Shown: in pieces, positions 1 through 12,805 of the stretch
How positions within the stretch are numbered: the stretch's first letter is position 1
How the letters are laid out: every line of letters begins with the position of its first letter
DNA from: Streptomyces sp. DI166
GTDB taxonomy: Bacteria > Actinomycetota > Actinomycetes > Streptomycetales > Streptomycetaceae
Assembly: GCF_900091315.1 (NCBI RefSeq)
Contig: NZ_FLSP01000042.1
Span: 1 to 64,000, forward strand
Direction of reading: 5' to 3'
DNA length: 64,000 nucleotides
Position numbers and translations under genes: made by a program
The notes under the pieces: generated by a model
The model's input: the letters and a program-made list of their open reading frames with translations, nothing else
The model's database searches: none
Told to the model about the DNA's origin: nothing

Positions 1-143
1 GGTGCGGCGGCGGCGCGGCCGTCGGCCGGGGTGGCCGCGGCGCCCAGCAGGGCGGCCGCGGTGGCTCCGGCGGCCACGCCCAGCATGCCGCGTCTGCTGA
101 GGCGGTGGGTGAGCTCGGGGTCGGTGCGATGGGTGCGGCTCAT
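1..143 (-). CDS. Tat-exported protein, N-terminal fragment cut by the window edge
   Basis: Only the first 47 codons are inside the window, starting at the ATG at 143-141. An AGGAGGAG ribosome site lies about 8 nt upstream, which supports this start. The visible part is a leader: a charged n-region, the twin-arginine stretch SRRGMLG (residues 16-22), then an Ala/Gly-rich hydrophobic core and a likely cleavage area near AATPA. It is therefore probably exported folded by the Tat system. It lies 86 nt beyond the stop of the EboF-like gene on the same strand, so it may be the last gene of that operon. The mature domain is outside the window and no function can be assigned. Confidence 0.7.
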   Translation of the reverse strand, partial: MSRTHRTDPELTHRLSRRGMLGVAAGATAAALLGAAATPADGRAAAA

Positions 144-229: not shown

Positions 230-1642
230 TCAGCCCAGACCGGCCAGTTGGAGCAGCAGTGACTTCACATCGGTGGCCGCGAGGCGGTCACCGACAGCGC
301 GGGGGGTGGAGCAGATGAGGAGCGGACCGTCGTCGTCGCTCTCCGGAAGGCGGCCGTGGCTGCCGCGAATAGGTGAGGGGTCCAGGGGCACCACCGCCAT
401 GCGGTAGCGCATGCCGAGTTTCTTGCGCGCCAGGGCGGTCGCGGCCTTGACCTTGACGTAGGGGTCGAGCGGGTCCATGAACAGCTCGACCGGGTCGTAG
501 CCGGGTTTGCGGTGGATCTCGACCAGGCGCGCGAAGTCGGGCGCGCGGGCGTCGTCGAGCCAGTAGTAGTACGTGAACCAGGCGTCCGGCTCGGCGACGG
601 CGACGAGTTCGCCGGAGCGCGGATGGTCGAGATGGTGCGCCTTCTTGCCCTCGTCGTCGAGGAGTTGGCCGAGCCCGGGCAGTCCGTCCAGCGCGGCGCG
701 GGTCGCGTCGAGGTCCTCGGGGCGGCGCACGTACACATGGGCGATCTGGTGGTCGGCGACGGCGAAGGCACGGGAGGCCATCGCGTCGAGGTACTCCATG
801 CCGTCCTGGGTGTGCACCTCCAGCAGACCGGCCCGGCGCAGGGCGCGGTTGATGTCCACGGGGCGGGTCACGCGGGTGATGCCGTACTCGGACAGCGCGA
901 CGACGGTGCGGCCCTCGGCGCGGGCGTCGTCGAGGAGCGAGGCGAGGGCCGTGTCGAGGTCGGTGGCCGCCTGGAGGGAGCGCGGGTCGTCGGGGCCGAA
1001 GCGCTGCAGGTCGTAGTCGAGATGAGGGAGGTAGCACAGGGTCAGGTCGGGGTGGCGGGTGCGGTTGATGTGGCGGGTGGCGTCGATGATCCACTGGCTG
1101 GAGACCAGGTCGGCGCCGGGTCCCCAGAAGTGGAAGAGGGGGAAGGTGCCCAGTTCGTCGGTGAGTTCGTCGTGCAGGGCGGCGGGGCGGGTGTAGCAGT
1201 CGGGTTCCTTGCGGCCGTCGGCGTAGTAGATCGGACGGGGGGTGACGGTGTAGTCGGTGTCGGCGCCCATGGCGTACCACCAGCAGATGTTGGCGACGGT
1301 GTAGCCGGGGTGGGCGCGGCGGGCGGCGTCCCACAGTTTGTCGCCGGAGACGAGGCCGTTGTGCTGGCGCCACAGCAGGACGTCGCCGAGTTCGCGGAAG
1401 TACCAGCCGTTGCCGACGATGCCGTGCTCGGACGGGTGGGTGCCGGTGAGGAAGGTGGACTGGGCGGCGCAGGTGACGGCGGGCAGCACGGTGCCGAGCG
1501 CGGCTCGGGAGCCGGAGCGGCCGAGCGCCTTGAGGTGGGGCATGTGGTCGAGGAGACGGGGGGTGAGGCCGACGACGTCCAGGACGAGGAGCGGGGTCGG
1601 GCCGTCGGTGCCGGAGCCGGTCGGTGCGGTGCCCGGGGTCAT
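230..1642 (-). CDS. eboF: EboF-like nucleotide pyrophosphatase/phosphodiesterase family protein
   Basis: A 470-residue alkaline-phosphatase-superfamily hydrolase of the type I phosphodiesterase/nucleotide pyrophosphatase group. Near the N-terminus, VLDVVGL supplies the first metal-binding Asp. PAVTCAAQSTFLTGTHPSEHG carries the expected Thr nucleophile followed by the usual Gly-rich turn. LPHLDYDLQRFGP supplies further Asp/His ligands and SHGRLP a late His. Where NPP enzymes have SDHG, this protein reads SEYG, so one metal site is altered; this may be normal for the Ebo branch. The start overlaps the stop of the EboE gene by 4 nt (ATGA). No signal peptide is visible. The EboF name rests on family and position in the operon. 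The substrate is unknown, perhaps a phosphorylated metabolite made by the neighbouring enzymes. Confidence 0.82.
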   Translation of the reverse strand: MTPGTAPTGSGTDGPTPLLVLDVVGLTPRLLDHMPHLKALGRSGSRAALGTVLPAVTCAAQSTFLTGTHPSEHGIVGNGWYFRELGDVLLWRQHNGLVSGDKLWDAARRAHPGYTVANICWWYAMGADTDYTVTPRPIYYADGRKEPDCYTRPAALHDELTDELGTFPLFHFWGPGADLVSSQWIIDATRHINRTRHPDLTLCYLPHLDYDLQRFGPDDPRSLQAATDLDTALASLLDDARAEGRTVVALSEYGITRVTRPVDINRALRRAGLLEVHTQDGMEYLDAMASRAFAVADHQIAHVYVRRPEDLDATRAALDGLPGLGQLLDDEGKKAHHLDHPRSGELVAVAEPDAWFTYYYWLDDARAPDFARLVEIHRKPGYDPVELFMDPLDPYVKVKAATALARKKLGMRYRMAVVPLDPSPIRGSHGRLPESDDDGPLLICSTPRAVGDRLAATDVKSLLLQLAGLG

Positions 1643-2796
1643 GGGAGCTCCTTCAGGCCGAGGTCCGTCAGCAGGTCGCGGGCGAGGGCGAGTTCGGCGG
1701 CGATGCCGTCGGCGAGCCGGCCCCGGGTGGCGGGGCGCAGTTCGGGTGGGAGGGCCTGCCAGGTGTAGGTCTCGACCTCCAGGTGGCGGGTGAGCGGCTG
1801 CGGGCCGCCGACGAGACGGCTCAGGGCGGTTATGAGGACGGGGAGTGTGGAGGTGAGGGGCGCGGCGGGGGCCGCGTGCAGGGGGACGTGGAAGTGGGCG
1901 CGCCAGGGCGCGGTGTCGGGCAGGGCCCGGCCGGCGAGGGCCTCCCCGAGGTCGTCGGTGCCGCGAAGGCCGGACGGGGTGCGGGTGCGGGTCTGGTGCA
2001 GGAAGCGGGGCTCGTCGAAGGCGGCGAGGGCGGTGCGGACGGCGGGCAGGTGCGGCTGCTCGGCGTGCAGGGCCGCGGAGAGCTGGGACTTGACGACGGG
2101 GACACCGGTGGCGCCGAGGGCGGCCAGGGCGGTGTGCGGATCTTCGAAGGAGGTGGCGAGGTGGCAGGTGTCGACGCAGATGCCGATGCGCGGGTGGCCG
2201 ATCGCGGTGAGCGGGGCGATGGCGTCGGCGGTGGTCTCGACGACACAGCCGGGTTCGGGTTCCAGGCCGACGCGGATGGAGCGGCCGGTGAGTTCGTGCA
2301 GTGCGTCGAGGCGTTCGCCGAGGGTGCGCAGCGCGGTGTGGGCGGCCTCGGTGGGCCGGGTGCGCCAGGCGAGCGGGAGGGTGGAGACGCTGCCCTCGTC
2401 GATGTCGTCGGGGAGCAGTCCGGCGAGCAGCCGGGCGAGGGCGGTGGTGTGGTCGAGGCGCTCGGGGTCGGTCCAGTCCGGCCGGTAGACGCGGTACTTG
2501 ACCTCCTCGGAGCCGAAGCCCTCATAGGGGAAGCCGTTGAGGGTGACGACTTCGAGTCCGCGGCGGTCGAGTTCGCAGCGCAGTCCGCGCAGCGCGGCCG
2601 GGTCGCTGCCGAGGGCGCGTGCGGCGTCCTTGGCGAGCCACAGGCCGATGCCGAGGCGGTCCCGGCCGAGACGGCGGCGGACGGGTTCGCAGTGCTCGCG
2701 GAGCTGGGCGAGGACGCCGTCGAGGGTCTCTGCGGGGTGGACGTTGGTGCAGTAGGCGAGGTGGACGGTGGTGCCGTCGGGGTGGCGGAAGCGCAT
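1639..2796 (-). CDS. eboE: EboE-like TIM-barrel (xylose-isomerase-like) protein
   Basis: A 385-residue soluble protein of the sugar phosphate isomerase/epimerase-like TIM-barrel type, matching what is annotated as metabolite traffic protein EboE. The N-terminal strand reads HLAYCTNVHPAETLDG. Candidate metal ligands occur as VGLEPEPGCVVET, GICVDTCHLAT and LEVETYTWQALPP, a spacing typical of AP-endonuclease-2-like barrels. The ATG at 2796 lies 3 nt from the stop of the TatD-like gene, and its own stop overlaps the next start, so it is translated in the middle of the operon. In cyanobacteria the ebo cluster is needed to move the scytonemin monomer to the periplasm; the chemistry of EboE is not established. 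The reaction is left open here. Confidence 0.82.
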   Translation of the reverse strand: MRFRHPDGTTVHLAYCTNVHPAETLDGVLAQLREHCEPVRRRLGRDRLGIGLWLAKDAARALGSDPAALRGLRCELDRRGLEVVTLNGFPYEGFGSEEVKYRVYRPDWTDPERLDHTTALARLLAGLLPDDIDEGSVSTLPLAWRTRPTEAAHTALRTLGERLDALHELTGRSIRVGLEPEPGCVVETTADAIAPLTAIGHPRIGICVDTCHLATSFEDPHTALAALGATGVPVVKSQLSAALHAEQPHLPAVRTALAAFDEPRFLHQTRTRTPSGLRGTDDLGEALAGRALPDTAPWRAHFHVPLHAAPAAPLTSTLPVLITALSRLVGGPQPLTRHLEVETYTWQALPPELRPATRGRLADGIAAELALARDLLTDLGLKELP

Positions 2797-2799
2797 GGC

Positions 2800-3648
2800 T
2801 CACGCCCCGCCGCGCAGGATGGAGTTGCCCTCGTGGGTGGCGTCGGTGCCGCCGACGTCGAGGTTGAGCCGGCCGCTGAGCCCGTAGAAGGCGACGGGGT
2901 TGTGCCACAGCACCCGCTCGACCTCGTCCTCGGTGAACCCTTCGGCCAGCATCAGGTCGCCGACCCCGCGGGTCTTGAGGGGGTCGCTGCGCCCCCAGTC
3001 GGCGGCGGAGTTCACCAGCACCTGCTCGGGGCCGTAGGCGCGCAGGATGGCGACCATCCGCTCCTCGTCCATCTTGGTGTCGGGATAGACGGAGAAGCCG
3101 AGCCAGCAACCGCTGTCCTTGGCCTCCTTGACGGTGGTCTCGTTGAGGTGGTCGACCAGGACGCGTTCCGGGGGCAGTGTGGACTCGCGCACGACGTCGA
3201 GGGTGCGGCGCAGTCCGGCGGCCTTGTCGCGGTGCGGGGTGTGCACCAGGGCGGGCAGGTCGTGGTCGGCGGCGAGCTGGAGCTGGGCGGCGAGCGCGGT
3301 GTCCTCGGCCGGGGTCATCGAGTCGTAGCCGATCTCACCGACGGCCACCACCTGGTCCTTGACGAGATAGCGGGGCAGTTCGTCGAGGACGGGCCGACAG
3401 CGCGGGTCGTTGGCCTCCTTGGGGTTGAGGGCGAGGGCGCAGTGGTGGGCGATGCCGTACTGGGCGGCGCGGAAGGGTTCCCAGCCGAGGAGGGAGTCGA
3501 AGTAGTCGAAGAAGGTGGCCGGCGAGGTGCGCGGCTGGCCGAGCCAGAAGGAGGGTTCGACGACGGCGCGGACACCGGCCGCGTACATGGCCTCGTAGTC
3601 GTCGGTGGTCCTGGACGTCATGTGGATGTGGGGGTCGAAGATGCGCAT
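2800..3648 (-). CDS. eboB: EboB-like TatD-family metal-dependent hydrolase
   Basis: A 282-residue amidohydrolase-superfamily protein beginning MRIFDPHIHMTSRTTDDYEA, where DPHIH is the N-terminal metal-binding H-x-H. VVAVGEIGYD supplies the conserved Glu strand, LPALVHTPH a metal His, and VLVDHLNE a second His. VLVNSAADWGRSDP is the usual late Asp region. I chose the ATG at 3648 because it overlaps the EboA stop by one base (TGATG) and starts exactly at the first barrel strand; a longer open frame upstream has no family similarity. Ebo operons contain a TatD-like hydrolase named EboB, and its position between EboA and EboE fits. The substrate is unknown. Confidence 0.85.
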   Translation of the reverse strand: MRIFDPHIHMTSRTTDDYEAMYAAGVRAVVEPSFWLGQPRTSPATFFDYFDSLLGWEPFRAAQYGIAHHCALALNPKEANDPRCRPVLDELPRYLVKDQVVAVGEIGYDSMTPAEDTALAAQLQLAADHDLPALVHTPHRDKAAGLRRTLDVVRESTLPPERVLVDHLNETTVKEAKDSGCWLGFSVYPDTKMDEERMVAILRAYGPEQVLVNSAADWGRSDPLKTRGVGDLMLAEGFTEDEVERVLWHNPVAFYGLSGRLNLDVGGTDATHEGNSILRGGA

Positions 3649-4346
3649 CAGGACTCCTTGCCGTGGGGGTCGGCCGCACCGGGCGGCGGAGGTGGGGAGC
3701 CGGCTTCGGTCAGGGCGAGGACGCGGTACAGGTCCTCGGGCACGGGACGGCCCGCGGCGGTGCGTTCGGCGGCGTAGTCGCCGAGCATGCGGGCGAGTTC
3801 GGCGTCGCCGCGGGCCCGGCGCGCCAGGTCCGCGACCGCGGTGACGGGCACGCCGGTGAACAGGCACTTCAGTACGGCGTGCCGCCACTGGTGGGCGTCG
3901 AGGTGCCGGGCGGCGTAGGGGCCGACGGCGGCGGCGACAAGGCCGGTGTCGTTGGCGCGCAGGGCGTCCTCGACGAGCGGGAGGGCGTCCGGGCCGGGCA
4001 CGAGGTGGGGCAGGGCGTGCAGGACGGCGCGGCGTTCGGGGCCGGTGCCCTGGCGGTAGACCCGGGTGACCGCCTCGGTGTCGGCGCGGGCGGCGTGCAG
4101 GATGAGGACGCGGGCGGCGTCGGCGTGCTCGGGGCCGCATCTGCGTCCGGCCTCGGCCAGGCGCAGCTCCCAGACGGAGATGGGCCCGTGGGTGCCGGGG
4201 TGGGCGGCGGCCTCGTCCAGGGCCCGGTCGAGCCAGCTGCGGGCGGCGTCGGTGAGGCGGGCCGCGAGGCGGGCGCGAAGGGCGCTGGGGGTGGTGAGCA
4301 GGGGTCCGGCCGTCGGGGAGTCCGTGTCGGGGTGGAGCGGTGTCAT
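3648..4346 (-). CDS. eboA: EboA domain-containing protein
   Basis: A 232-residue, mostly helical soluble protein with no catalytic motif that I recognise. It has the profile of EboA: an N-terminal helical stretch (LRARLAARLTDAARSWLDRAL), a middle ISVWELRLAEAGRRCG segment, and HEAT-like alpha repeats rich in Ala and Arg. It overlaps the upstream TIM-barrel gene by 4 nt (ATGA at 4343-4346) and the downstream TatD gene by 1 nt, so expression must be coupled to both. The C-terminus is a short Pro-rich tail (SPPPPPGAADP). EboA is the marker gene of the Ebo cluster and its biochemical function is unknown. The call rests partly on the gene neighbourhood. Confidence 0.75.
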   Translation of the reverse strand: MTPLHPDTDSPTAGPLLTTPSALRARLAARLTDAARSWLDRALDEAAAHPGTHGPISVWELRLAEAGRRCGPEHADAARVLILHAARADTEAVTRVYRQGTGPERRAVLHALPHLVPGPDALPLVEDALRANDTGLVAAAVGPYAARHLDAHQWRHAVLKCLFTGVPVTAVADLARRARGDAELARMLGDYAAERTAAGRPVPEDLYRVLALTEAGSPPPPPGAADPHGKES

Positions 4347-5218
4347 CGGGTGCTCCCTTCGGGGGCGGCGGAGCGGAGGAAGGGCAGGGAGCGCGCGGCG
4401 TGGTCGGGGCCGGCGTGGGAGTGGCGGGGCAGTTCCACGACGGTCAGGCCCCGGTAGCCGGTGTCGGCCAGGGCCGCGAGGACGGGCGGGAAGTCGATCT
4501 CGCCCTCGCCGAAGGGGAGGTGTTCGTGGACGCCGCGCCGCATGTCCTCGATCTGGACGTGGCGCAGCCAGGGAGCGGCGGCGCGTACGCAGTCGGCGGG
4601 CGGGAGGGGTTCGAGGCACTGGCAGTGGCCGATGTCCAGGGTGAGTCCGAGGTGCGGGTGGTCGCCGAGGGTGTGACGGAGGTGGTGGAAGTCGGCGAGG
4701 GTGGCGAGCAGATGGCCGGGTTCGGGTTCGACGGCCAGCGGGACACGGGCGGCGGAGGCCGCGTCGAGGACAGGGGTGAGTGCCTCGGCCAGGCGCTTCC
4801 AGGCGGTGTCCGGGTCGGTGCCGTCGGGGGTGATACCGCTGAAGCAGTGCACGGCGTGGGCGCCGAGGTCGGCGGCGATGCGTACGGCACGCAGCAGCAG
4901 GTCGACCCGGCGGCCGCGGTCCTCGGCGTCGGGGTCGAGGAGGGAGGGGCCGTGCTTGCGGCGCGGGTCGAGGACATAGCGGGCGCCGGTCTCGACCGTG
5001 ACGCGGAGTCCGAGCGCGTCCAGGCGCCGGGCGACGTGACGGACCCGGGCGGCGAGTTCCGGGGCCGGGGCCAGCGGGTCGAGGTGCATGTGGTCGAGGG
5101 TCAGTCCGACCCCGTCGTAGCCGAGGTCGGCGAGCAGGCCGAGGGCGTCGTCCAGACGCAGGTCGGCGAGGCCGTTCGTGCCGTAGCCGAAGCGGAGGGT
5201 GCCCGGTGCGGTGGTCAT
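4343..5218 (-). CDS. Sugar phosphate isomerase/epimerase-like TIM-barrel protein
   Basis: A 291-residue AP-endonuclease-2/xylose-isomerase-like barrel. The start FGYGTNGLADLRLDDALGLL leads into repeated beta-alpha units. Metal-ligand candidates are the Glu in LAVEPEPGHLL, Asp and His in TLDIGHCQCLEP, His in WLRHVQIEDM, and the terminal Glu in LTVVELPRHSH, all expected in this superfamily. It overlaps its neighbours by 4 nt on both sides. It is a second barrel protein in the operon besides EboE, and an extra member relative to the minimal EboA-F set. It may isomerise or epimerise the cyclitol or sugar product of the MIPS-type cyclase encoded upstream, but this is inference. Confidence 0.85.
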   Translation of the reverse strand: MTTAPGTLRFGYGTNGLADLRLDDALGLLADLGYDGVGLTLDHMHLDPLAPAPELAARVRHVARRLDALGLRVTVETGARYVLDPRRKHGPSLLDPDAEDRGRRVDLLLRAVRIAADLGAHAVHCFSGITPDGTDPDTAWKRLAEALTPVLDAASAARVPLAVEPEPGHLLATLADFHHLRHTLGDHPHLGLTLDIGHCQCLEPLPPADCVRAAAPWLRHVQIEDMRRGVHEHLPFGEGEIDFPPVLAALADTGYRGLTVVELPRHSHAGPDHAARSLPFLRSAAPEGSTR

Positions 5219-6621
5219 GTGATGCTCACCTTTCTCGCGAACCGGCGGCCCAGCGGGGCGAGAGCCGCGACGAACAGTGCGGTGGCCGCGGCACCGGAGC
5301 GGGCGGCGAGCGCGGCCTGGAGCGGCACGGTGGCCCGGATACCGGCGCCGACGGCGCGTTGGGTGAGCGGGGGTGAGGGGTTCAGGGCGGCGTGGAAGTG
5401 GGGGCGGGCGGTGGTGGCGGCGTAGGCGGCGGCCAGGGCTTGGGGGAGGGTGGGGGCGGAGGCTCGGCGGAGGGCGGCGAGAGGGCCGACGGAGGCCGCC
5501 CGCGCCGGACCGGTGCCCGCCGCGCCGACGCCCCTGCGCTCCGCGCCCCGTGACTCCGGGCGAGCCCGCCCGCCGACGGAGCCTCGGATGTCGCTGTCGC
5601 CCGCGCCGACGCCCGTGCCCGAGGCACGCCGTCCGCCACCGAGGGCCCTCTCAACACCGGCAGGGTCCCCGGTACAGCGACCGCCCCTGCCGACGCCCGA
5701 GCCCGAGCCGCTCCGTCCGCCACCGCCGGGGACCGTCTCAGCACCGGCCGTGCCCCCGGTACGGCTACCGCCCGAGCCGTTCCGTCCGCCACCGCGGGCG
5801 GCCCTCTCAGCACCAGCGGTACCCCCGCTACGGCGACCGCCCGTGCGGCCCGCCTGGTCCGCGCCGCTCGCGCCGTCGGGAATCGCGCCCGCGCCACGGG
5901 CTCCCCGTGCCCCCGCGCCGCTCCGCGTGATCAAGGCGCTCAGCGCGGCGGTGACGGCCAGGGCCGCGAGGGGAGCTTTGGCCGAGCCGCCCCTCGTCTC
6001 GTGGCGGGAGACCGAGGTGACCGTCAGGGTGTGGGTGCCCAGGAGGGCGGCGGACGGCAGGGCCGGGCGGATGCGGCCGGAGGTGGCCGCGGCGCCGAGG
6101 AGGAGGTCGAGGGCGCGGGCCGCTCCCATGGCGGCGGGACCGGCGGGGGTGTGCTTGAGGCGCAGGTCGTAGGCCCAGACCGTGGCGGCGGAGGGGGCGG
6201 CCACCGCGAGGGCGGGGCGACCGGCGCGGGCGGCCAGTGCGAGGCCGCCCGCGGTGAGCGCGCAGGCCGCGGTGAGGGCGGCGGCGGGGCGGACGCGGCC
6301 GGAGGGCAGGGGGCGGTGGGGGCGTTCGGCGGCGTCCTCCTCGCGGTCGGCCCAGTCGTTGAGGGCCATGCCGGCCTCGTACAGGCACAGGGAGGAGCCG
6401 ATGGCGAGCAGGGTGCGGGAGTTGTGGGGTACGGAGGTGGCAGCGGCGCCTGCCAGGGCGTCACCGGGGACGGTGAACAGAGCGGGCAGGCGCAGGAGTT
6501 CGACCCAGACCCAGGCACCGGCCCATACGCCCGATCCCGATCCAGATCCCGATCCCGATCCCGATCCCGCACCCGCACCCGCACCCGCTCCGGCCCCGGC
6601 TCCGGTGCGCGCGCTCACCAT
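5215..6621 (-). CDS. eboC: EboC-like UbiA-family prenyltransferase with repetitive Gly-rich insertion
   Basis: An integral membrane prenyltransferase of the UbiA family, 468 residues from the ATG at 6621. I prefer that ATG because it overlaps the cyclase stop by 7 nt. The first Asp-rich motif is intact: NDWADREED at residues 88-96, followed by RPHRPLPSGRV. A second conserved loop reads WAYDLRLKHTPAG. Two regions are abnormal. Residues 7-31 are a Gly-Ala/Gly-Ser run encoded by a 6-bp microsatellite. Residues about 234-374 are a Gly/Arg/Ser-rich low-complexity insertion between predicted membrane helices, built from imperfect GGTAGAE-type repeats. The usual second Asp-rich motif is not evident. 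Family members are typically near 300 residues, so the insertion explains the excess length. Whether the enzyme is active needs checking. Confidence 0.8.
   Translation of the reverse strand: MVSARTGAGAGAGAGAGAGSGSGSGSGSGSGVWAGAWVWVELLRLPALFTVPGDALAGAAATSVPHNSRTLLAIGSSLCLYEAGMALNDWADREEDAAERPHRPLPSGRVRPAAALTAACALTAGGLALAARAGRPALAVAAPSAATVWAYDLRLKHTPAGPAAMGAARALDLLLGAAATSGRIRPALPSAALLGTHTLTVTSVSRHETRGGSAKAPLAALAVTAALSALITRSGAGARGARGAGAIPDGASGADQAGRTGGRRSGGTAGAERAARGGGRNGSGGSRTGGTAGAETVPGGGGRSGSGSGVGRGGRCTGDPAGVERALGGGRRASGTGVGAGDSDIRGSVGGRARPESRGAERRGVGAAGTGPARAASVGPLAALRRASAPTLPQALAAAYAATTARPHFHAALNPSPPLTQRAVGAGIRATVPLQAALAARSGAAATALFVAALAPLGRRFARKVSIT
5500..5922 (-). repeat. Imperfect minisatellite-like coding repeats in the prenyltransferase gene
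   Basis: This stretch encodes the Gly/Arg/Ser-rich insertion of the EboC-like protein. Repeated blocks of roughly 24-26 codons share the phrase GGTAGAE followed by Gly-Arg-Ser runs, and a more diverged copy has DPAGVERALGGG. The pattern indicates expansion by unequal exchange or slippage within the frame. The boundaries are approximate. Confidence 0.65.
6533..6600. repeat. Hexanucleotide microsatellite (GATCCC then GCACCC units)
   Basis: GATCCC-type units are repeated about seven times with one variant, followed by three or four GCACCC-type units. Read on the minus strand they encode the Gly-Ser and Gly-Ala dipeptide runs at the N-terminus of the prenyltransferase. Unit-number changes keep the frame because the unit is 6 bp, so length variation between strains is likely. 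Confidence 0.85.
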
Positions 6622-7754
6622 CCCGTCCCCTCGCCCTCGCCCTCGCACAGCACGTCAGCGAACCGCAGCAGTTCGGCGTACTGCTCCGACAGCGCTGCCG
6701 GTCCGTCCCCCACCGGGTCCTTGAAGTAGAAGCCGAGTTCGCCGAGCGGTCCCGTGAGGCCCCGCTCGTGCGCCCGGGCCGTGAGCCGGGCGAGGTCGAG
6801 GACCAGAGGGGCGGCCAGGGCGGAGTCGCAACCCTGCCAGATGGTCTGCAGGACCATGCGGGTGCCGAGGAAGCCGTCGAAGGCGATGTGGTCCCAGGCG
6901 GTCTTCCAGTCGCCGAGGGCGGGCACGTCGTCGATGTGGACCTCGCCCTCGGGAGGGGTGGCCAGGGTCTCGGCGAGGACGCGTTCCTTGCCCGCGTTCT
7001 TCGCGGCGGCGGCCGCCGGGTCGGCAAGGGCGGCGCCGTCACCGCCGCCGAGGAGGTTGGTGCCGGACCAGGCGCGCACGGCGAGGGCGCGCTGGGTGAA
7101 CATCGGCGCCAGGGCGGCCCGGAGCAGGGTCTGCCCGGTCTTGCCGTCGCGGCCCGCGTAGGGCAGGCCGGAGTCGGTGGCGAGGGAGGCCAGTTCGGGG
7201 TGGTGCAGGCCGGTGGAGGGGGTGAAGTTGACGTACGGGCAGCCCGCGCGCAGGGCGGCTGCCGCATACAGGCTGCTGGGCGGGAGCGCCCGGCCGGTGG
7301 CGGCGGGCTCGGTGGAGGCGACGTTCACCACGACCGCGCGGGCCAGGCCGAGCCGTCGTACGAAGTCCTGGATGTCGTCGGCGAAGGCGCTGATCAGTGC
7401 GGCTTCGTCCCGGGTGTCGCCGGGGAGGGGGCCGCCAGGCCTGATCTCCCGTTCGCCGGCGGCCAGTTCGGACTGGACGGCGGCGGGCAGGCCGTGCGGC
7501 AGGACGCCGCCCGCGGCGAGTTCCTCGGCGCGCTTGGGCAGTGGGCAGTCGAGGGTGTCGTGGCCGCCGAAGACCAGGTTCGGCAGCGGTGGCAGTTGGC
7601 AGTCGGTGAAGGCCGGGGTTTCGGTGACCATGCCCGTGGGCGGGTGCAGGCCCGCGGAGATCGCGGCGCAGCCCGCCACCACGGTCGTGGCGACGGAGCC
7701 GCGGGCCCCGACCAGCCACACTCCGGTTCGGGTTCCAGAAGGGGACACGGACAT
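6615..7754 (-). CDS. Inositol-3-phosphate synthase (MIPS)-like NAD-dependent cyclase
   Basis: A 379-residue protein with the MIPS fold signatures in order: an N-terminal NAD loop VGARGSVATTVVAG, VNVASTEP, YVNFTPS, the substrate/NAD loop AGRDGKTGQT, WSGTNLLGGGDG, and IAFDGFLGTRM near the catalytic lysine area. Known MIPS enzymes convert glucose-6-phosphate to inositol-3-phosphate through an NAD-dependent oxidation-aldol-reduction cycle. An AAGGAGG site lies 7 nt before the ATG, and this is the first gene of the minus-strand operon, directly after the terminator of the ThuA gene. In described Ebo operons the sugar-cyclase slot is filled by EboD, a 3-dehydroquinate-synthase-like enzyme; here this unrelated cyclase type takes that place. 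It could also be simply a second inositol synthase. Confidence 0.9.
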   Translation of the reverse strand: MSVSPSGTRTGVWLVGARGSVATTVVAGCAAISAGLHPPTGMVTETPAFTDCQLPPLPNLVFGGHDTLDCPLPKRAEELAAGGVLPHGLPAAVQSELAAGEREIRPGGPLPGDTRDEAALISAFADDIQDFVRRLGLARAVVVNVASTEPAATGRALPPSSLYAAAALRAGCPYVNFTPSTGLHHPELASLATDSGLPYAGRDGKTGQTLLRAALAPMFTQRALAVRAWSGTNLLGGGDGAALADPAAAAAKNAGKERVLAETLATPPEGEVHIDDVPALGDWKTAWDHIAFDGFLGTRMVLQTIWQGCDSALAAPLVLDLARLTARAHERGLTGPLGELGFYFKDPVGDGPAALSEQYAELLRFADVLCEGEGEGTGW

Positions 7755-7848: not shown

Positions 7849-9183
7849 TCAGTTGCCCCTGGTGGGCAGTTCCTTGATGCGGATGTTCCGGAAGGACACC
7901 TGGTCGCCGGCTCCGTGGTTCTGGATGCCGATGTGTCCGTCGCGCAGGCTCCGGGCCGGATCGGTGTTCGTGAAGTCGTTGATCTGCACGCCGTTGAGCC
8001 AGACGCGCAGCCGCTCGCCCTCCACCCGGATCTCGTACGTGTTCCACTCCCCCGGCGGGTTCAGCGCGGCGTCCCGCCGGGCCAGGTCGGCGGACCGGAA
8101 GCCGTAGACGGCTCCGGTGGTCCGCTCGGGGGCGTCCGTGGCGTCGATCTGGACCTCGTAGCCGTTGTTCACCGCCGACCACGGGTCGTCGGAGGGCGGG
8201 AAGCCCACGAACACACCGGAGTTGTCGTCCCCGGCCATCCTCCAGTCGAGCTTCAGGGAGTAGGACCCGAGGCCCTGGTCGGCGTACCAGAGCATGCCCA
8301 TGCCGCCCGTGGTGGTGAGGCTGCCGTCGGCCTCCAGCTGGAAGGAGCCGGGGCCCGCCTGCCGCCAGCCGGACAGCGACTCGGCGGTGCCGTCGAAGAG
8401 CGGCCGGTAGCCGTTCTCCGGGCGGCAGTCGGCCTGTACGGCACCGGTGGTCCAGCGCAGCCCGCCCAGCAGGTGCTGCCGGAAGGCGAGGTCGGCGTAG
8501 GACTCCTTGGTGTGGCCGCCGCCGGTGTAGAAGGCCCGCCCGCCCTGACTGGTGTGGCACCAGGCGATGGGATGGTCGCCGTTCATGGTGCCGCCGGAGT
8601 ACGAGGACTCGTCCAGGGAGGCGAGCACCCGGACCCGGTCGCGCGGGTTGGAGCGGTAGTTGTACCACTCGTCCATCCGGTTCCAGGCCGTCGGCAGGTG
8701 CGAGGTCGCCGCGTGGGCACCGTCCTCGACCTGCACCGTGGCCTGCTGGATCGCCGGGTGCGACTGGAAGTAGGCGCCGACGGTCTGCCCGTAGAACGCC
8801 CAGTCGTACTCGGTGTCGGCGGCGGCGTGGACGCCCAGGAAGCCGCCGCCCTGGCGCACATACCGCTCGAACGCCCGTTGTTGGGCGGAGTTGAGCACGT
8901 CGCCCGTGGTGGACAGGAACACCACGGCGTCGTAGCGGCGCAGGTTGGCGTGGGTGAAGGCGCGGGCGTCCTCGGTGGCGTCGACCGTGATGCCGGCCGA
9001 GGCTCCGAGGTCCTTCAGCGCCTGTACGCCGTCGGGGATGGAGTCGTGGCGGAAGCCCGCCGTCCTGGAGAAGACCAGCACCCGTTCCCCGACGTCGGGT
9101 TCGGAGGCGGCCGGTCCCGACATGCAGCCGAGGAGCAGGGCCGCGCCGGTGATCACAGTGGCCAGTTGGCCGGTCCGTCGCAT
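7849..9183 (-). CDS. Secreted lipoprotein: ThuA-like domain fused to DUF1080 (3-keto-disaccharide hydrolase type)
   Basis: The 444-residue protein begins with a lipoprotein leader ending in the lipobox LLGC. Residues about 33-245 form a ThuA-like (glutamine-amidotransferase-fold) domain: VLVFSRTAGFRHDSI, FLSTTGDVLN, GGGFLGVHAAADTEYDW and GGHTKESYAD. Residues about 252-443 form the DUF1080 jelly-roll: NGYRPLFDGTAESLSGWRQ, GMLWYADQGLGSYSLKLDWR, NSGVFVGFP, GYEVQIDAT, PGEWNTYEIRVEGERLRVWLNG and HIGIQNHG. DUF1080 members include 3-keto-disaccharide hydrolases/lyases. A GAGGAGG site precedes the ATG, only 14 nt after the upstream stop, so it is coupled to the dehydrogenase gene. It probably acts on the outer face of the membrane on an oxidised glycoside. 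The exact substrate is unknown. Confidence 0.88.
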   Translation of the reverse strand: MRRTGQLATVITGAALLLGCMSGPAASEPDVGERVLVFSRTAGFRHDSIPDGVQALKDLGASAGITVDATEDARAFTHANLRRYDAVVFLSTTGDVLNSAQQRAFERYVRQGGGFLGVHAAADTEYDWAFYGQTVGAYFQSHPAIQQATVQVEDGAHAATSHLPTAWNRMDEWYNYRSNPRDRVRVLASLDESSYSGGTMNGDHPIAWCHTSQGGRAFYTGGGHTKESYADLAFRQHLLGGLRWTTGAVQADCRPENGYRPLFDGTAESLSGWRQAGPGSFQLEADGSLTTTGGMGMLWYADQGLGSYSLKLDWRMAGDDNSGVFVGFPPSDDPWSAVNNGYEVQIDATDAPERTTGAVYGFRSADLARRDAALNPPGEWNTYEIRVEGERLRVWLNGVQINDFTNTDPARSLRDGHIGIQNHGAGDQVSFRNIRIKELPTRGN

Positions 9184-9197
9184 GATGTACCGCCTCC

Positions 9198-11726
9198 TCA
9201 GCCGGTGGTGAAGGTGAAGTCGTCGACGTCGAACAGCGCGCCCGAGCCGCCCTTGAAGACGAGGTAGAGCGTGGTCGTGCCGCGCGGCGCGCGGCTCAAC
9301 TGGGCGGTGACGTCCTGGAAGTTCTCCCAGCCGCCGGTCACGGGCACGGCCACCGAGCCGAGCAGGGTGCCGGAGGAGCTGCCCGCACGGATCTCCAGCG
9401 TGCCGCCCGCGCCGCCGGAGGAGACGCGTGCCGTCAGCGACTTGGCGTTCCCGAGGGCGTACGGCGTGAAGGAGATCCAGTCGCCGTTGTGGATGTCGCC
9501 GACGGTGCGGCCGCCGTGGGCGCCGGTCTTGGTGATGAGGGAGACGCCCAGGCTGTTGCCGAAGTGCTCGGCCTGCCGGTGCCTGGGCTGCAACTGGGCC
9601 TGGTCGTGGGTGGTCAGCGGGGCCTGGCCGCCGCCTCCGCCGTCGGTGTACTCGGCGTCCAGGACGCCGAAGATGTTGGCGTCCTCGTCGTGGCCGCCGT
9701 CGGCGCTGGTCTGGATGGTGCCGGTGCAGCCGTTGGCCGAGGTGACGGGGTGGCCGTGGCTGTCGTGGCCGAGGACGAAGGTGACCTTCACCTTCGAGCA
9801 GTCGATCCTGCGGTCCTCGGGGTCGCTGACCCGGACCTTGAACGGGATGGCGTCACCGAAGCTGAACAGCTGCCCGTCCTGGGGCAGTTCGAGTGTCACC
9901 TTGGGTGCGGTGTTGCCGACCACGACCTGCACGCTCGCGCTTCCGGTGCGCCCGGAGGGGTCCTTGACCGTCAGGGTCGCGGTGTAGGTGCCGTTGGTGC
10001 GGTAGCGGTGGGTGGGGGCGGCGCTGGTGGAGGTGGCGCCGTCGCCGAAGTCCCAGTGGTAGGTGAGGGTGTCGCCGTCCTGGTCGGTGCTGCCCTCGGA
10101 GGAGAACCGCACCCGCAGCGGGGCCTGTCCGGAGGTGCGGTCGGCCGAGGCCTGCGCGACCGGGGAGTGCCCGTCGGCGGCGTACTCGATGCGGTACAGG
10201 GCGGAGTTCTCGTCACCGCCGAACCAGGACAGGCCGTAGTCGAGGACGTAGAGGGCGCCGTCGGGGCCGAAGGCCATGTCCATCACCTGGGTGCCGGTCC
10301 AGGGCACGTCGTTGATGGACCGCACGGTGCCGTCGGCGTCGCTGGTGATCCGCTTGATCCAGCGGCGGCCGAACTCACCGGCGAAGAAGTCGCCGTCGTA
10401 GGCCTCGGGGAACTTCACCGGCGAGTCGAGGGCCGCGTCGTAGTGGTAGACGGGTCCGCCCATCGGGGATTCGGAGCCGGTGCCGAACTCGGGCACGGAC
10501 CCGCCGTCGTACGGGATCCAGGCGGCCTGCGCCGGGGGCAGGTCGGTGAGCCCGGTGTTGTGGGGCGAGGTGTTCTTCGGGGCGGCGCAGTCGAAGGCGG
10601 CGCCGGACTGCTTGGTGGCGAAGTCGTAGTCGACGTAGGCATCGTTGTCGCCGGTGCAGTACGGCCAGCCGAAGTTGCCGGGGCCGGTGACACGGGCGAA
10701 CTCGACCTGGCCCGCCGGCCCCCGGGACGGGTTGGCGGCGCCGGCGTCGGGGCCGTAGTCGCCGACGTAGAGGATGCCCGTCGCCTTGTCGACGCTGAAC
10801 CGGAAGGGGTTGCGGAAGCCCATCGCGTAGATCTCGGGCCGTGTCCTCTCGGTGCCGGGGGCGAAGAGGTTGCCCTCGGGGACGGAGTACGAGCCGTCCG
10901 CGTTGACCTTGATGCGGAGGATCTTGCCGCGCAGGTCGTTGGTGTTGCCGGAGGTGCGCCGGGCGTCGAAGGCGGGGTTGCGGTCGGCGCGTTCGTCGAT
11001 GGGGGTGAAGCCGTCGGACTGGAAGGGGTTGGTGTCGTCGCCGGTCGACAGGTACAGGTTGCCGTCCGCGTCGAAGTCGATGTCGCCGCCGACATGGCAG
11101 CAGATGCCGCGCGAGGCGGGCACGTCGAGGATCTTCTTCTCGCTGGCGGTGTCGAGGGTGCCGTCCTCCTTCAGCACGAACCGGGAGAGCCGGTTGACGC
11201 CGTCGAAGGGGGCGAAGTCGGCTGCCGTGCCAGTCTCCGGGGCGTCACCCGCAGGGGTGTCCAACGGGGGTGCGTAGTAGAGGTAGATGAAGCGGTTCTC
11301 GGCGAAGCCCGGGTCCACGCCGATGCCTTGCAGACCCTCCTCGTCATGGGCGTAGACGTCGAGCCTGCCCGCGAGCGTGGTGTTGCCCGCGGGGTCGGTC
11401 AGGCGCAGTTCGCCGTCGCGGGAGGTGTGCAGGACGGAGCGGTCCGGGAGGACGGCGAGCGACATCGGCTCGCCGACCTCCGGCTCGCCCTTGGCGAGGG
11501 TGACCTGCTGGAAGTCCTCCGCCGCGACGGCGGCGGCACCGTCCGCCGGGGCCTCGGCGACGGCCTGCGGGGCCAGGGTGAGCAACGCGCCCGCCAGCAG
11601 CGCGCCGCTGAGCAGGGCGACCGCCTTGCGCAGCACGACCGCCTTGCGCAGCGCGACCGCCTTGCGCAGAGCGGGGCGTCTTCTGTGGTTGTCGGCAGGG
11701 TCGGTGGTGCGGTCTTTCGCTTGCAC
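9198..11726 (-). CDS. Secreted glucose/sorbosone-dehydrogenase-like protein with PKD and CBM6 domains
   Basis: An 842-residue secreted multidomain protein. I place the start at the GTG at 11726 because TGGAGG lies 7 nt before it; the ATG 30 nt further upstream has no ribosome site. The leader contains three near-identical LRKAV blocks before its hydrophobic core. The GSDH beta-propeller (about residues 75-480) shows FAENRFIYLYYAPP, CCHVGGDIDFDADGNLYLSTGD, YAMGFRNPFRFSVD, GNFGWPYC and GPDGALYVLDYG. A PKD domain follows (about 520-600, YHWDFGDGATS), then a linker domain, then a C-terminal CBM6-like domain (about 715-842). The family oxidises sugars with PQQ. Streptomyces usually lack PQQ synthesis, so the cofactor is uncertain. 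It likely feeds the co-encoded DUF1080 protein. Confidence 0.87.
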   Translation of the reverse strand: MQAKDRTTDPADNHRRRPALRKAVALRKAVVLRKAVALLSGALLAGALLTLAPQAVAEAPADGAAAVAAEDFQQVTLAKGEPEVGEPMSLAVLPDRSVLHTSRDGELRLTDPAGNTTLAGRLDVYAHDEEGLQGIGVDPGFAENRFIYLYYAPPLDTPAGDAPETGTAADFAPFDGVNRLSRFVLKEDGTLDTASEKKILDVPASRGICCHVGGDIDFDADGNLYLSTGDDTNPFQSDGFTPIDERADRNPAFDARRTSGNTNDLRGKILRIKVNADGSYSVPEGNLFAPGTERTRPEIYAMGFRNPFRFSVDKATGILYVGDYGPDAGAANPSRGPAGQVEFARVTGPGNFGWPYCTGDNDAYVDYDFATKQSGAAFDCAAPKNTSPHNTGLTDLPPAQAAWIPYDGGSVPEFGTGSESPMGGPVYHYDAALDSPVKFPEAYDGDFFAGEFGRRWIKRITSDADGTVRSINDVPWTGTQVMDMAFGPDGALYVLDYGLSWFGGDENSALYRIEYAADGHSPVAQASADRTSGQAPLRVRFSSEGSTDQDGDTLTYHWDFGDGATSTSAAPTHRYRTNGTYTATLTVKDPSGRTGSASVQVVVGNTAPKVTLELPQDGQLFSFGDAIPFKVRVSDPEDRRIDCSKVKVTFVLGHDSHGHPVTSANGCTGTIQTSADGGHDEDANIFGVLDAEYTDGGGGGQAPLTTHDQAQLQPRHRQAEHFGNSLGVSLITKTGAHGGRTVGDIHNGDWISFTPYALGNAKSLTARVSSGGAGGTLEIRAGSSSGTLLGSVAVPVTGGWENFQDVTAQLSRAPRGTTTLYLVFKGGSGALFDVDDFTFTTG
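11617..11670. repeat. Three tandem 18-bp repeats in the signal-peptide coding region
   Basis: Units at 11617-11634, 11635-11652 and 11653-11670 are nearly identical (core GACCGCCTTGCGCAG). They encode the LRKAVA/LRKAVV/LRKAVA blocks in the n-region of the dehydrogenase leader. Each extra copy adds six residues, two of them basic, without breaking the frame. Confidence 0.9.
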
Positions 11727-11807
11727 GAAGTGCCTCCAGAGTGGGGCTGGTTGCATGCGGTGCTTGCGCCGGGGTGCGCCGTCACCCCGGAGACTGCTGT
11801 GGGGGGG

Positions 11808-12805
11808 TCAGTTGCCGAAGGCCGCGTCGAAGGAGGCCGACGGCGGGTCGAAGTCGTACGCCTTGAGCCGGGCCAGCGCCTCGGGGGCGCCCTGGAGCCG
11901 GTCCATGCCGGCGTCCTCCCACTCCACGGAGACGGGGCCCCGGTAGTCGATGGAGCGCAGCATCCGGAAGACGTCCTCCCAGGGCACGTCACCGTGGCCC
12001 GCGGAGACGAAGTCCCAGCCGCGCCGAGGGTCGCCCCAGGGCAGGTGGGAGCCTAGGCGGCCGTTGCGGCCGTCGAGGCGCTTGCGGGCCTCCTTGCAGT
12101 CGACGTGGTAGATGCGGTCCCGGAAGTCCCAGAGGAAGCCGACCGGGTCGAGGTCCTGCCACACGAAGTGGGAAGGGTCGAAGTTCAGGCCGAACGCGGG
12201 CCGGTTGCCGACCGCGTCCAGGGCGCGCCGGGTGGTCCAGTAGTCGTAGGCGATCTCGCTGGGGTGGACCTCGTGGGCGAAGCGGACGCCCTCGGCGTCG
12301 AAGACGTCCAGGATCGGGTTCCAGCGCTCGGCGAAGTCCTCGTATCCGCGTTCGATCATCGACTCGGGGGCGGGGGGAACATCGCGACCAGGTGCCAGAT
12401 CGCGGAGCCGGTGAAACCGATGACGGTGTTCACGCCGAAGGCGGCCGCGGCGCGCGCGGTGTCCGCCATGCGGGCCGCCGCCCGGCGGCGCACGCCCTCG
12501 GGGTCGCCGTCGCCCCAGATGTCGTCGGGCAGGATCGCCCGGTGGCGTTCGTCGATGATGGCGTCGCAGACGGCCTGGCCGACGAGGTGGTTGGAGATCG
12601 CCCAGCACTTCAGCCCGTACTTGTCGAGCAGGGCGTGCCGGGAGGGCAGGTAGGAGGGGTCGGCGAGGGCCTTGTCGACCTCGAAGTGGTCGCCCCAGCA
12701 GGCGAGTTCGAGTCCGTCGTAGCCGAAGTCCCGGGCGAGGCGGCAGACCTCTTCGAGCGGGAGGTCGGCCCACTGTCCGGTGAAGAGTGTGAAGGTGCGC
12801 GGCAT
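11808..12805 (-). pseudogene. Sugar phosphate isomerase/epimerase, interrupted by a one-base frameshift
   Basis: Two frames together encode one complete TIM-barrel sugar isomerase of about 332 residues. The first frame (12805 to 12356) gives the N-terminal 149 residues from [20 protein letters not shown] to AIWHLVAMF, then runs out as PPPPSR-stop. The other frame continues with [18 protein letters not shown] to the stop at 11808, including FAHEVHPSEIAYDYWTT, GLNFDPSHFVWQ, YHVDCKEA and GPVSVEWEDAGMD, which carry the metal and catalytic residues. Adding one C to the C-run (G6 on the plus strand, 12372-12377) restores the frame. It may be a sequencing error or a real mutation. The stop TGA overlaps an ATG in the second frame (ATGA at 12356-12359), so the 183-residue C-terminal part could still be translated by coupling. 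The gene sits between the oxidoreductase and dehydrogenase genes. Confidence 0.85.

Follow-up and report, generated by a model that had tools for sequence, protein, structure and literature searches.

A variant ebo-type operon of Streptomyces with a MIPS-fold cyclase in the probable place of EboD

The closest described relatives of the operon analyzed here are the eboABCDEF clusters of Bacteroidota, Cyanobacteria and other lineages (PMC5133447, PMC6282210). Our operon comprises seven genes of Streptomyces sp. DI166 and lies at the start of contig NZ_FLSP01000042.1, of which positions 1 to 64,000 constitute the window, that is, the whole 64,000-nucleotide stretch of DNA that was analyzed. In Nostoc punctiforme, ebo mutants keep the scytonemin monomer in the cytoplasm, ebo being needed for its movement to the periplasm (PMC6282210). 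Sedoheptulose 7-phosphate has been proposed as the substrate of EboD (PMC5133447), tetratricopeptide repeats have been suggested for EboA (PMC6282210), and EboC homologues, Ubi-297 among them, farnesylate quinolines in vitro, the acceptors tried in that study being aromatic and saying nothing either way on cyclitols (PMC9235831). The Streptomyces operon shares with the canonical clusters grouped genes for EboA, EboB, EboE, EboF and a UbiA-superfamily prenyltransferase with the same Asp-rich motif; however, it is without EboD, and instead has a cyclase of the myo-inositol phosphate synthase (MIPS) fold, an additional TIM barrel, a prenyltransferase of the SCO3242 family and a gene order of its own. 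We found no earlier description of such a cyclase swap in the main texts of the open-access literature, most subscription journals lying outside this scope, and the word 'inositol' is absent from the main text of PMC5133447.

A further point of comparison is provided by SCO3242 and SCO3243 of Streptomyces coelicolor, which bear consecutive numbers, are annotated as 'putative transferase' and 'myo-inositol phosphate synthase', and are listed in the CDA cluster range SCO3210-SCO3249 (PMC3610822). NCBIfam names the family of the window prenyltransferase after SCO3242. The likeness is one of annotation only, and the settings differ: an antibiotic cluster (CDA) there, whereas in the first 14-20 kb around the window operon we saw genes related to sugars but none of an antibiotic cluster.

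The MIPS-type cyclase and the search for EboD

The product of the first gene (P0001) matches both MIPS domains, PF07994 with 120 bits and PF01658 with 99 bits, and has no match to PF01761 at E<=0.01, which by this test sets it apart from the EboD/3-dehydroquinate synthase superfamily. Against TIGR03450, the model of the actinobacterial mycothiol-type MIPS, it reaches 33 of 638 bits, below the equivalog cut-off. Its nearest solved relative is the Archaeoglobus fulgidus MIPS (1u1i, 196 bits), the active-site positions compared being its K274, K278, K306, K367 and N255. The two Pfam domains and the aligned catalytic lysines place P0001 in the MIPS family; it resembles the archaeal enzyme in these lysines, while its substrate is a prediction only. 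Of 77 actinobacterial sequences, 76 retain the residues aligned to these five positions and the remaining one is gapped there; 4/4 haloarchaeal and Gemmatirosa sequences retain them as well.

Searches of the host assembly (8.87 Mb, 242 contigs, completeness 100) found no EboD. The single PF01761 gene of this genome adjoins frames that, read from their translations, are shikimate-kinase-like and chorismate-synthase-like, and because of these neighbors we take it to be AroB; an EboD elsewhere in the genome was accordingly rejected as a candidate. The genome has two MIPS-domain genes, namely the one in the ebo block and a distant copy with 26% identity over the matched part. The latter is presumably the housekeeping enzyme of the host, and the idea that the window gene is itself the housekeeping copy was rejected in view of it. 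A preliminary description of this DNA, which had read the MIPS-like gene as occupying the EboD slot, regarded an eboD homologue just outside the window, combined with a second, housekeeping role of this MIPS, as fatal to that reading; the genome searches turned up neither.

The same preliminary description called for a survey of actinobacterial genomes. We searched 296 actinomycete genomes with P0001 and the EboE family, counting EboE over the family cut-off and calling MIPS-type any P0001 match at E<=1e-60, a limit chosen after seeing the list. Seventy genomes have both the MIPS-type gene and EboE, none has the MIPS-type gene only, six have EboE only and 220 have neither (Fisher p 2e-61, a statistic that ignores shared descent). 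Three genomes (G028, G093 and G074) contain weaker MIPS relatives below the limit, and G028 has EboE. That the six EboE genomes without a MIPS-type gene are of EboD type was considered and rejected, as five have EboE alone and the sixth (L085) has an ebo locus without MIPS.

To these genomic counts we add the gene content of 81 loci, some genomes contributing more than one: the window and 80 fetched loci, which cover every one of the 78 EboE genes above the cut-off that lie outside the window, plus two sub-threshold ones. Seven have EboE alone and 74 are ebo loci, 70 of them with MIPS (L055 with a fragment only). All seven genes occur in the window order and on one strand in 65/74 ebo loci, the match of one gene being split in eight of them, the window included; this recurrence of the same genes in the same order excludes chance. 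The xylose-isomerase-like TIM barrel (P0003), which had earlier been regarded as an extra, is in fact a regular member of this variant, present in 66/70 MIPS-bearing loci. Four ebo loci are without MIPS (L090, L091, L043 and L085), of which L090 and L091 are situated at contig ends, their genomes having MIPS on other contigs. Each of four further loci taken from other classes within the phylum is likewise MIPS-type, and the operon occurs in 21/28 sampled genomes of the genus of the window.

Some of these loci deserve separate mention. L043 and L085 hold UbiA, EboA, EboB, EboE and EboF. In G191, the MIPS fragment lies in the ebo operon (L055), and a full-length MIPS-type gene lies elsewhere (L227) beside GSDH and Gfo/Idh/MocA genes. 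In L073, L102, L105, L113 and L115 an EboE over the family cut-off occurs in other contexts, with no further ebo gene in ~19 kb.

EboD itself was sought with a model built from five plasmid-borne EboDs, which recovered 5/5 positive genomes at 538-558 bits. The best score in the 296 actinomycete genomes was 189 bits, and at E<=1e-80 there was no match in 200 genomes of the family or in 246 of the phylum; these three draws overlap, and scoring was confined to some of the first-look candidates of each genome. For comparison we assembled 85 EboE loci, the best 80 of 576 together with the five plasmid loci, nearly all from other phyla; two actinobacterial members, L171 and L175, have EboE alone. 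Among these, 72 have an EboD of more than 200 bits, and none of the 85 has a MIPS or a P0003-like TIM barrel. The TIM barrel thus goes with MIPS, being found in nearly all MIPS loci and in none of the EboD type. Together, the co-occurrence in 70 genomes with no MIPS-only case, the failure to find EboD in the phylum, and the lack of MIPS in the 72 EboD loci bear out the preliminary assignment: a MIPS-type cyclase very probably holds the EboD position in these operons.

Composition of the operon and its surroundings

The block runs from window position 7754 to 230 on the minus strand, with neighboring genes overlapping by 1-34 bases or separated by a 3-base gap, in the order MIPS-UbiA-TIM-A-B-E-F from the 5' end (Table 1). 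The seven genes lie where the preliminary description had put them, and NCBIfam and Pfam back each call. Its labels of EboA, EboB (TatD), EboE, EboF and MIPS-like stand; its EboC does not, the prenyltransferase being of the SCO3242 sister family rather than the EboC equivalog.

Table 1. Features of the window operon and its immediate neighbors
Feature	Position	Strand	Basis and remarks
MIPS-fold cyclase P0001, 379 residues	6615..7754	-	Pfam profiles; very probably in the EboD place
UbiA-superfamily prenyltransferase P0002, SCO3242 family	5215..6648	-	NCBIfam/Pfam profiles; start GTG 6648 or ATG 6621
Xylose-isomerase-like TIM barrel P0003	4343..5218	-	PF01261; regular companion of the MIPS-type cyclase
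EboA P0004, 232 residues, predicted alpha-solenoid	3648..4346	-	NF035938
EboB P0005, TatD-family hydrolase	2800..3648	-	PF01026
EboE P0006, TIM barrel, predicted ketose-3-epimerase-like fold	1639..2796	-	NF035939
EboF P0007, type I phosphodiesterase/nucleotide pyrophosphatase family	230..1642	-	PF01663
Start of downstream gene, Tat-like signal	1..141	-	read from translation; gene cut by contig end
Upstream neighbor, ThuA + 3-keto-disaccharide hydrolase domain	7849..9183	-	profiles; 94 bases from operon, same strand
Upstream neighbor, GSDH (glucose/sorbosone dehydrogenase) domain + PKD + CBM6	9198..11756	-	profiles

P0002 matches PF01040 with 88 bits and the NCBIfam SCO3242 prenyltransferase model with 376 bits (cut-off 260), whereas it stays at 130 bits against the EboC equivalog model (cut-off 250). 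Its motif N-D-x-x-D-x-x-x-D is invariant in all 138 aligned sequences, from MIPS-type and EboD-type operons alike. The N-terminus of the encoded protein has a repeat rich in Gly and Ser, and further on comes a long insert of low complexity, which contains a 69-bp tandem repeat (5701-5843) and splits the profile match. P0003 matches PF01261 with 162 bits, its nearest solved sequence being an L-ribulose-5-phosphate 3-epimerase (43 bits). The TIM barrel and EboA lie in one open frame in 3/68 loci, in agreement with a remark in PMC5133447 on fusions of EboA with a xylose-isomerase-like region in actinobacteria.

EboA (P0004) scores 164 bits against the EboA-domain model NF035938 (cut-off 50), so that the lack of an EboA match, which would have told against the preliminary reading of the 232-residue protein, did not occur; the stricter EboA_family model NF035937 was not reached (59.5 bits, cut-off 320). 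It is predicted to form an alpha-solenoid (model pLDDT 89), and its best fold matches (Foldseek E 0.19, VIA Z 9.6) are within the range that calls for caution with helical proteins; no match is clear, and the comparison speaks neither for nor against tetratricopeptide repeats. EboB (P0005, whose translation as used begins one codon 5' of the EboB ATG) matches TatD PF01026 with 51 bits, EboE (P0006) NF035939 with 416 bits (cut-off 250), and EboF (P0007) PF01663 with 231 bits. Profiles built from the EboBs and EboFs of MIPS-type loci match 5/5 canonical EboBs (241-436 bits) and 5/5 canonical EboFs (602-654 bits). The EboE model (pLDDT 93) superposes on a member of the ketose-3-epimerase family with Z 23.4 (257 residues at 2.7 A), a match that names the fold of the predicted structure and not the reaction.

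The gene downstream of the operon is incomplete because the window starts at the contig start; in 12/73 loci the first downstream gene comes from a family with Tat-like signals, whose one profiled member, that of L053, is a xylose-isomerase-like TIM barrel. Upstream, a protein cluster similar to the GSDH and ThuA proteins of the window occurs in the flanks of 44/73 MIPS-type loci. Of its 57 members, 47 occupy one of the first two positions upstream and 50 are on the operon strand, and none occurs in the seven EboE-only loci. GSDH, ThuA or Gfo/Idh/MocA genes are near 49/70 MIPS-type loci, weak GSDH-profile matches are near 13/72 EboD loci, and GSDH or 3-keto-disaccharide-hydrolase genes are near two haloarchaeal clusters. 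DUF1080 proteins have been proposed as periplasmic 3-ketoglycoside hydrolases (PMC9007349). Further upstream in the window, a sugar-isomerase gene (11808-12805) falls into two frames near 12371 when compared to its relative in L103, owing to a frameshift or an assembly error.

Three Streptomyces plasmid operons of MIPS type were viewed in annotated records. In L123, on a 90-kb plasmid, the operon lies between type II polyketide genes and genes for an amidase, a glutamine-synthetase-like protein and an adenylosuccinate lyase, a set that resembles diazo-forming clusters. One of the three adjoins a gene annotated as ScyD/ScyE family and a multicopper oxidase; the former gene (L124:3026-4225), directly upstream of the operon, echoes the link between scytonemin and ebo.

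Related clusters in Gemmatimonadota and haloarchaea

Among 200 genomes that share their phylum with a Gemmatimonadota record, three have EboE at E<=1e-60, one of them with EboD (L128). The others, Gemmatirosa kalamazoonensis and G768, have EboB, EboF, UbiA, MIPS, the TIM barrel and EboE, that of G768 being frameshifted; no EboA was found in them, and no EboD in their genomes. Plasmids of the haloarchaea Halocatena, Halobaculum and Natronococcus encode TatD, UbiA, MIPS and EboF along with two TIM barrels, which give moderate scores of 147-174 bits to P0003; Haladaptatus has the same set, the MIPS not being in the stretch. We term these clusters ebo-like because no EboA is recognizable and the TIM barrels of L230 score only ~40 bits as EboE.

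In quick trees, both Gemmatimonadota MIPS-type sequences fall among the EboD-type ones in EboF, and that of Gemmatirosa does so in EboE, in each case adjoining L128 or L127; with EboB, EboE and EboF joined, Gemmatirosa and L128 come out as a pair (SH-aLRT 99). In the MIPS tree, a quick one as well, the ebo enzymes of actinobacteria group together (99), along with three copies that are not in ebo loci; Gemmatirosa and the haloarchaea fall outside this group, and two sequences are on very long branches. This suggests that MIPS was recruited separately in different lineages; independent replacement is not proven, since an approximately unbiased (AU) test gives p 0.07 and 0.08. Residues in UbiA, EboB, EboE and EboF that track the cyclase type were sought and rejected, the 17 columns that separate the types giving no co-adaptation signal in Gemmatirosa.

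A Halomarina and plasmids of Roseomonas, Hymenobacter and Bacteroides carry MIPS genes that were rejected as members, since they are not in ebo clusters. In six loci outside ebo clusters (L231, L234, L221, L222, L224 and L225), MIPS and a P0003-like TIM barrel are separated by 4-6 kb; in L231, from Roseomonas, genes between and around the two encode YcaO, Gfo/Idh/MocA, MBL-fold, methyltransferase, GT4 and PIG-L proteins.

A proposed pathway and its alternatives

We propose that a MIPS-fold cyclase and a TIM barrel isomerase together take over the role of EboD, the one cyclase of the canonical operon. The MIPS-fold enzyme would form an inositol phosphate by ring closure of glucose 6-phosphate or of a closely related hexose phosphate, and the TIM barrel, as kin of ketose epimerases and isomerases, might then change the stereochemistry or oxidation state of the cyclitol, possibly assisted by a Gfo/Idh/MocA oxidoreductase. 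A prenyl chain would be attached to this cyclitol within the membrane by the SCO3242-type enzyme, while EboB, EboE and EboF could trim, isomerize and dephosphorylate, and EboA may serve as a scaffold. The prenylated cyclitol would act at the membrane in support of extracytoplasmic chemistry, a role in keeping with the requirement of ebo for moving the scytonemin monomer and with the genes for GSDH, 3-keto-disaccharide hydrolase and Tat-signal TIM barrel proteins frequently found beside the operon. A prenylated cyclitol used in export, as in the preliminary description, is consistent with this enzyme set. Taken as one chain, from the replacement of EboD to the extracytoplasmic role, we regard the proposal as somewhat favored, the product and the role being the parts that we infer.

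Several observations weigh against it. We know of no product, substrate or phenotype for any MIPS-type operon. At a looser limit, MIPS relatives turn up in two genomes that are without EboE (G074 and G093), four MIPS-bearing loci have no called TIM barrel, and L043 and L085 are without MIPS in the fetched stretch with no contig end to blame. The MIPS lysines are also kept in 9/9 relatives outside ebo clusters, and so indicate cyclase activity rather than a special one, while other active-site positions vary, the aligned Asp282 being Glu in 18/76 sequences and Ser180 differing in 8/76. The haloarchaeal clusters have neither a recognizable EboA nor EboE, and by the AU values given above a common clade for the MIPS-type operons of bacteria stands at the 5% level. 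As the substrate of EboD is only proposed, the products of the two operon types may differ, and since EboC homologues farnesylate quinolines (PMC9235831), the acceptor may be aromatic.

One alternative, which we consider unlikely but worth weighing, is that the MIPS-fold cyclase and the TIM barrel start from another sugar phosphate and yet arrive at the very cyclitol that EboD makes, with the pathway otherwise unchanged. The EboF of Gemmatirosa, from a locus with MIPS and TIM, is nearest to that of the EboD-type L128 (75% identity), and at the 17 type-separating columns Gemmatirosa has the EboD-type residue in ten, the MIPS-type one in two and another in five; moreover, the UbiA motif is identical in both operon types and a solved MIPS homologue (6k96, 'Five-membered-cyclitol-phosphate synthase') forms a different ring. 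Against this, the catalytic lysines are kept throughout, fitting ordinary inositol-phosphate synthesis, and the additional TIM barrel is not found in EboD-type loci.

The farnesylation of quinolines by Ubi-297 (PMC9235831) and the cytoplasmic scytonemin monomer of ebo mutants (PMC6282210) could also be read as signs of an export module, in which an aromatic or secondary metabolite is the acceptor of the prenyltransferase and the cyclitol has a separate use, for instance as a phosphodiester-linked handle cleaved by EboF. Some MIPS-type operons do occur in or beside secondary-metabolite genes, namely the CDA range (PMC3610822), the type II polyketide plasmid cluster and the ScyD/ScyE gene. However, sugar-related genes flank 49/70 loci, and presence in three quarters of the sampled genomes of the genus is unlike a link to one antibiotic; we hold this explanation to be as improbable as the preceding one.

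Finally, that the operon merely belongs to a sugar-catabolic neighborhood, related to 3-keto-glycosides or inositol, in which MIPS raises the inositol supply, would account for the Gfo/Idh/MocA, GSDH, ThuA/3-keto-disaccharide hydrolase and TIM barrel genes around it and for similar genes and ABC transporters beside the haloarchaeal clusters, but is very improbable given that MIPS is a biosynthetic enzyme, that EboE is in all 70 MIPS-type genomes while sugar genes are near only 49/70 loci, and that the host has a separate MIPS.

Returning to the proposed pathway, a broader generalization may be ventured tentatively, with the odds rather against it: two unrelated cyclases could supply the ring of the ebo product, EboD and the pair of MIPS and TIM barrel having replaced one another separately in Actinomycetota, Gemmatimonadota and haloarchaea, and the product could be a prenylated-cyclitol cofactor or carrier for extracytoplasmic oxidative chemistry of sugars or pigments. 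If the swap is functional, it would suggest that the operon needs a cyclitol rather than a shikimate-type compound. MIPS, as a member of a well-understood family, gives a handle on the ebo product; with a familiar cyclase family and tractable hosts in Streptomyces, and partly in haloarchaea, the question of what the ebo systems make becomes testable.

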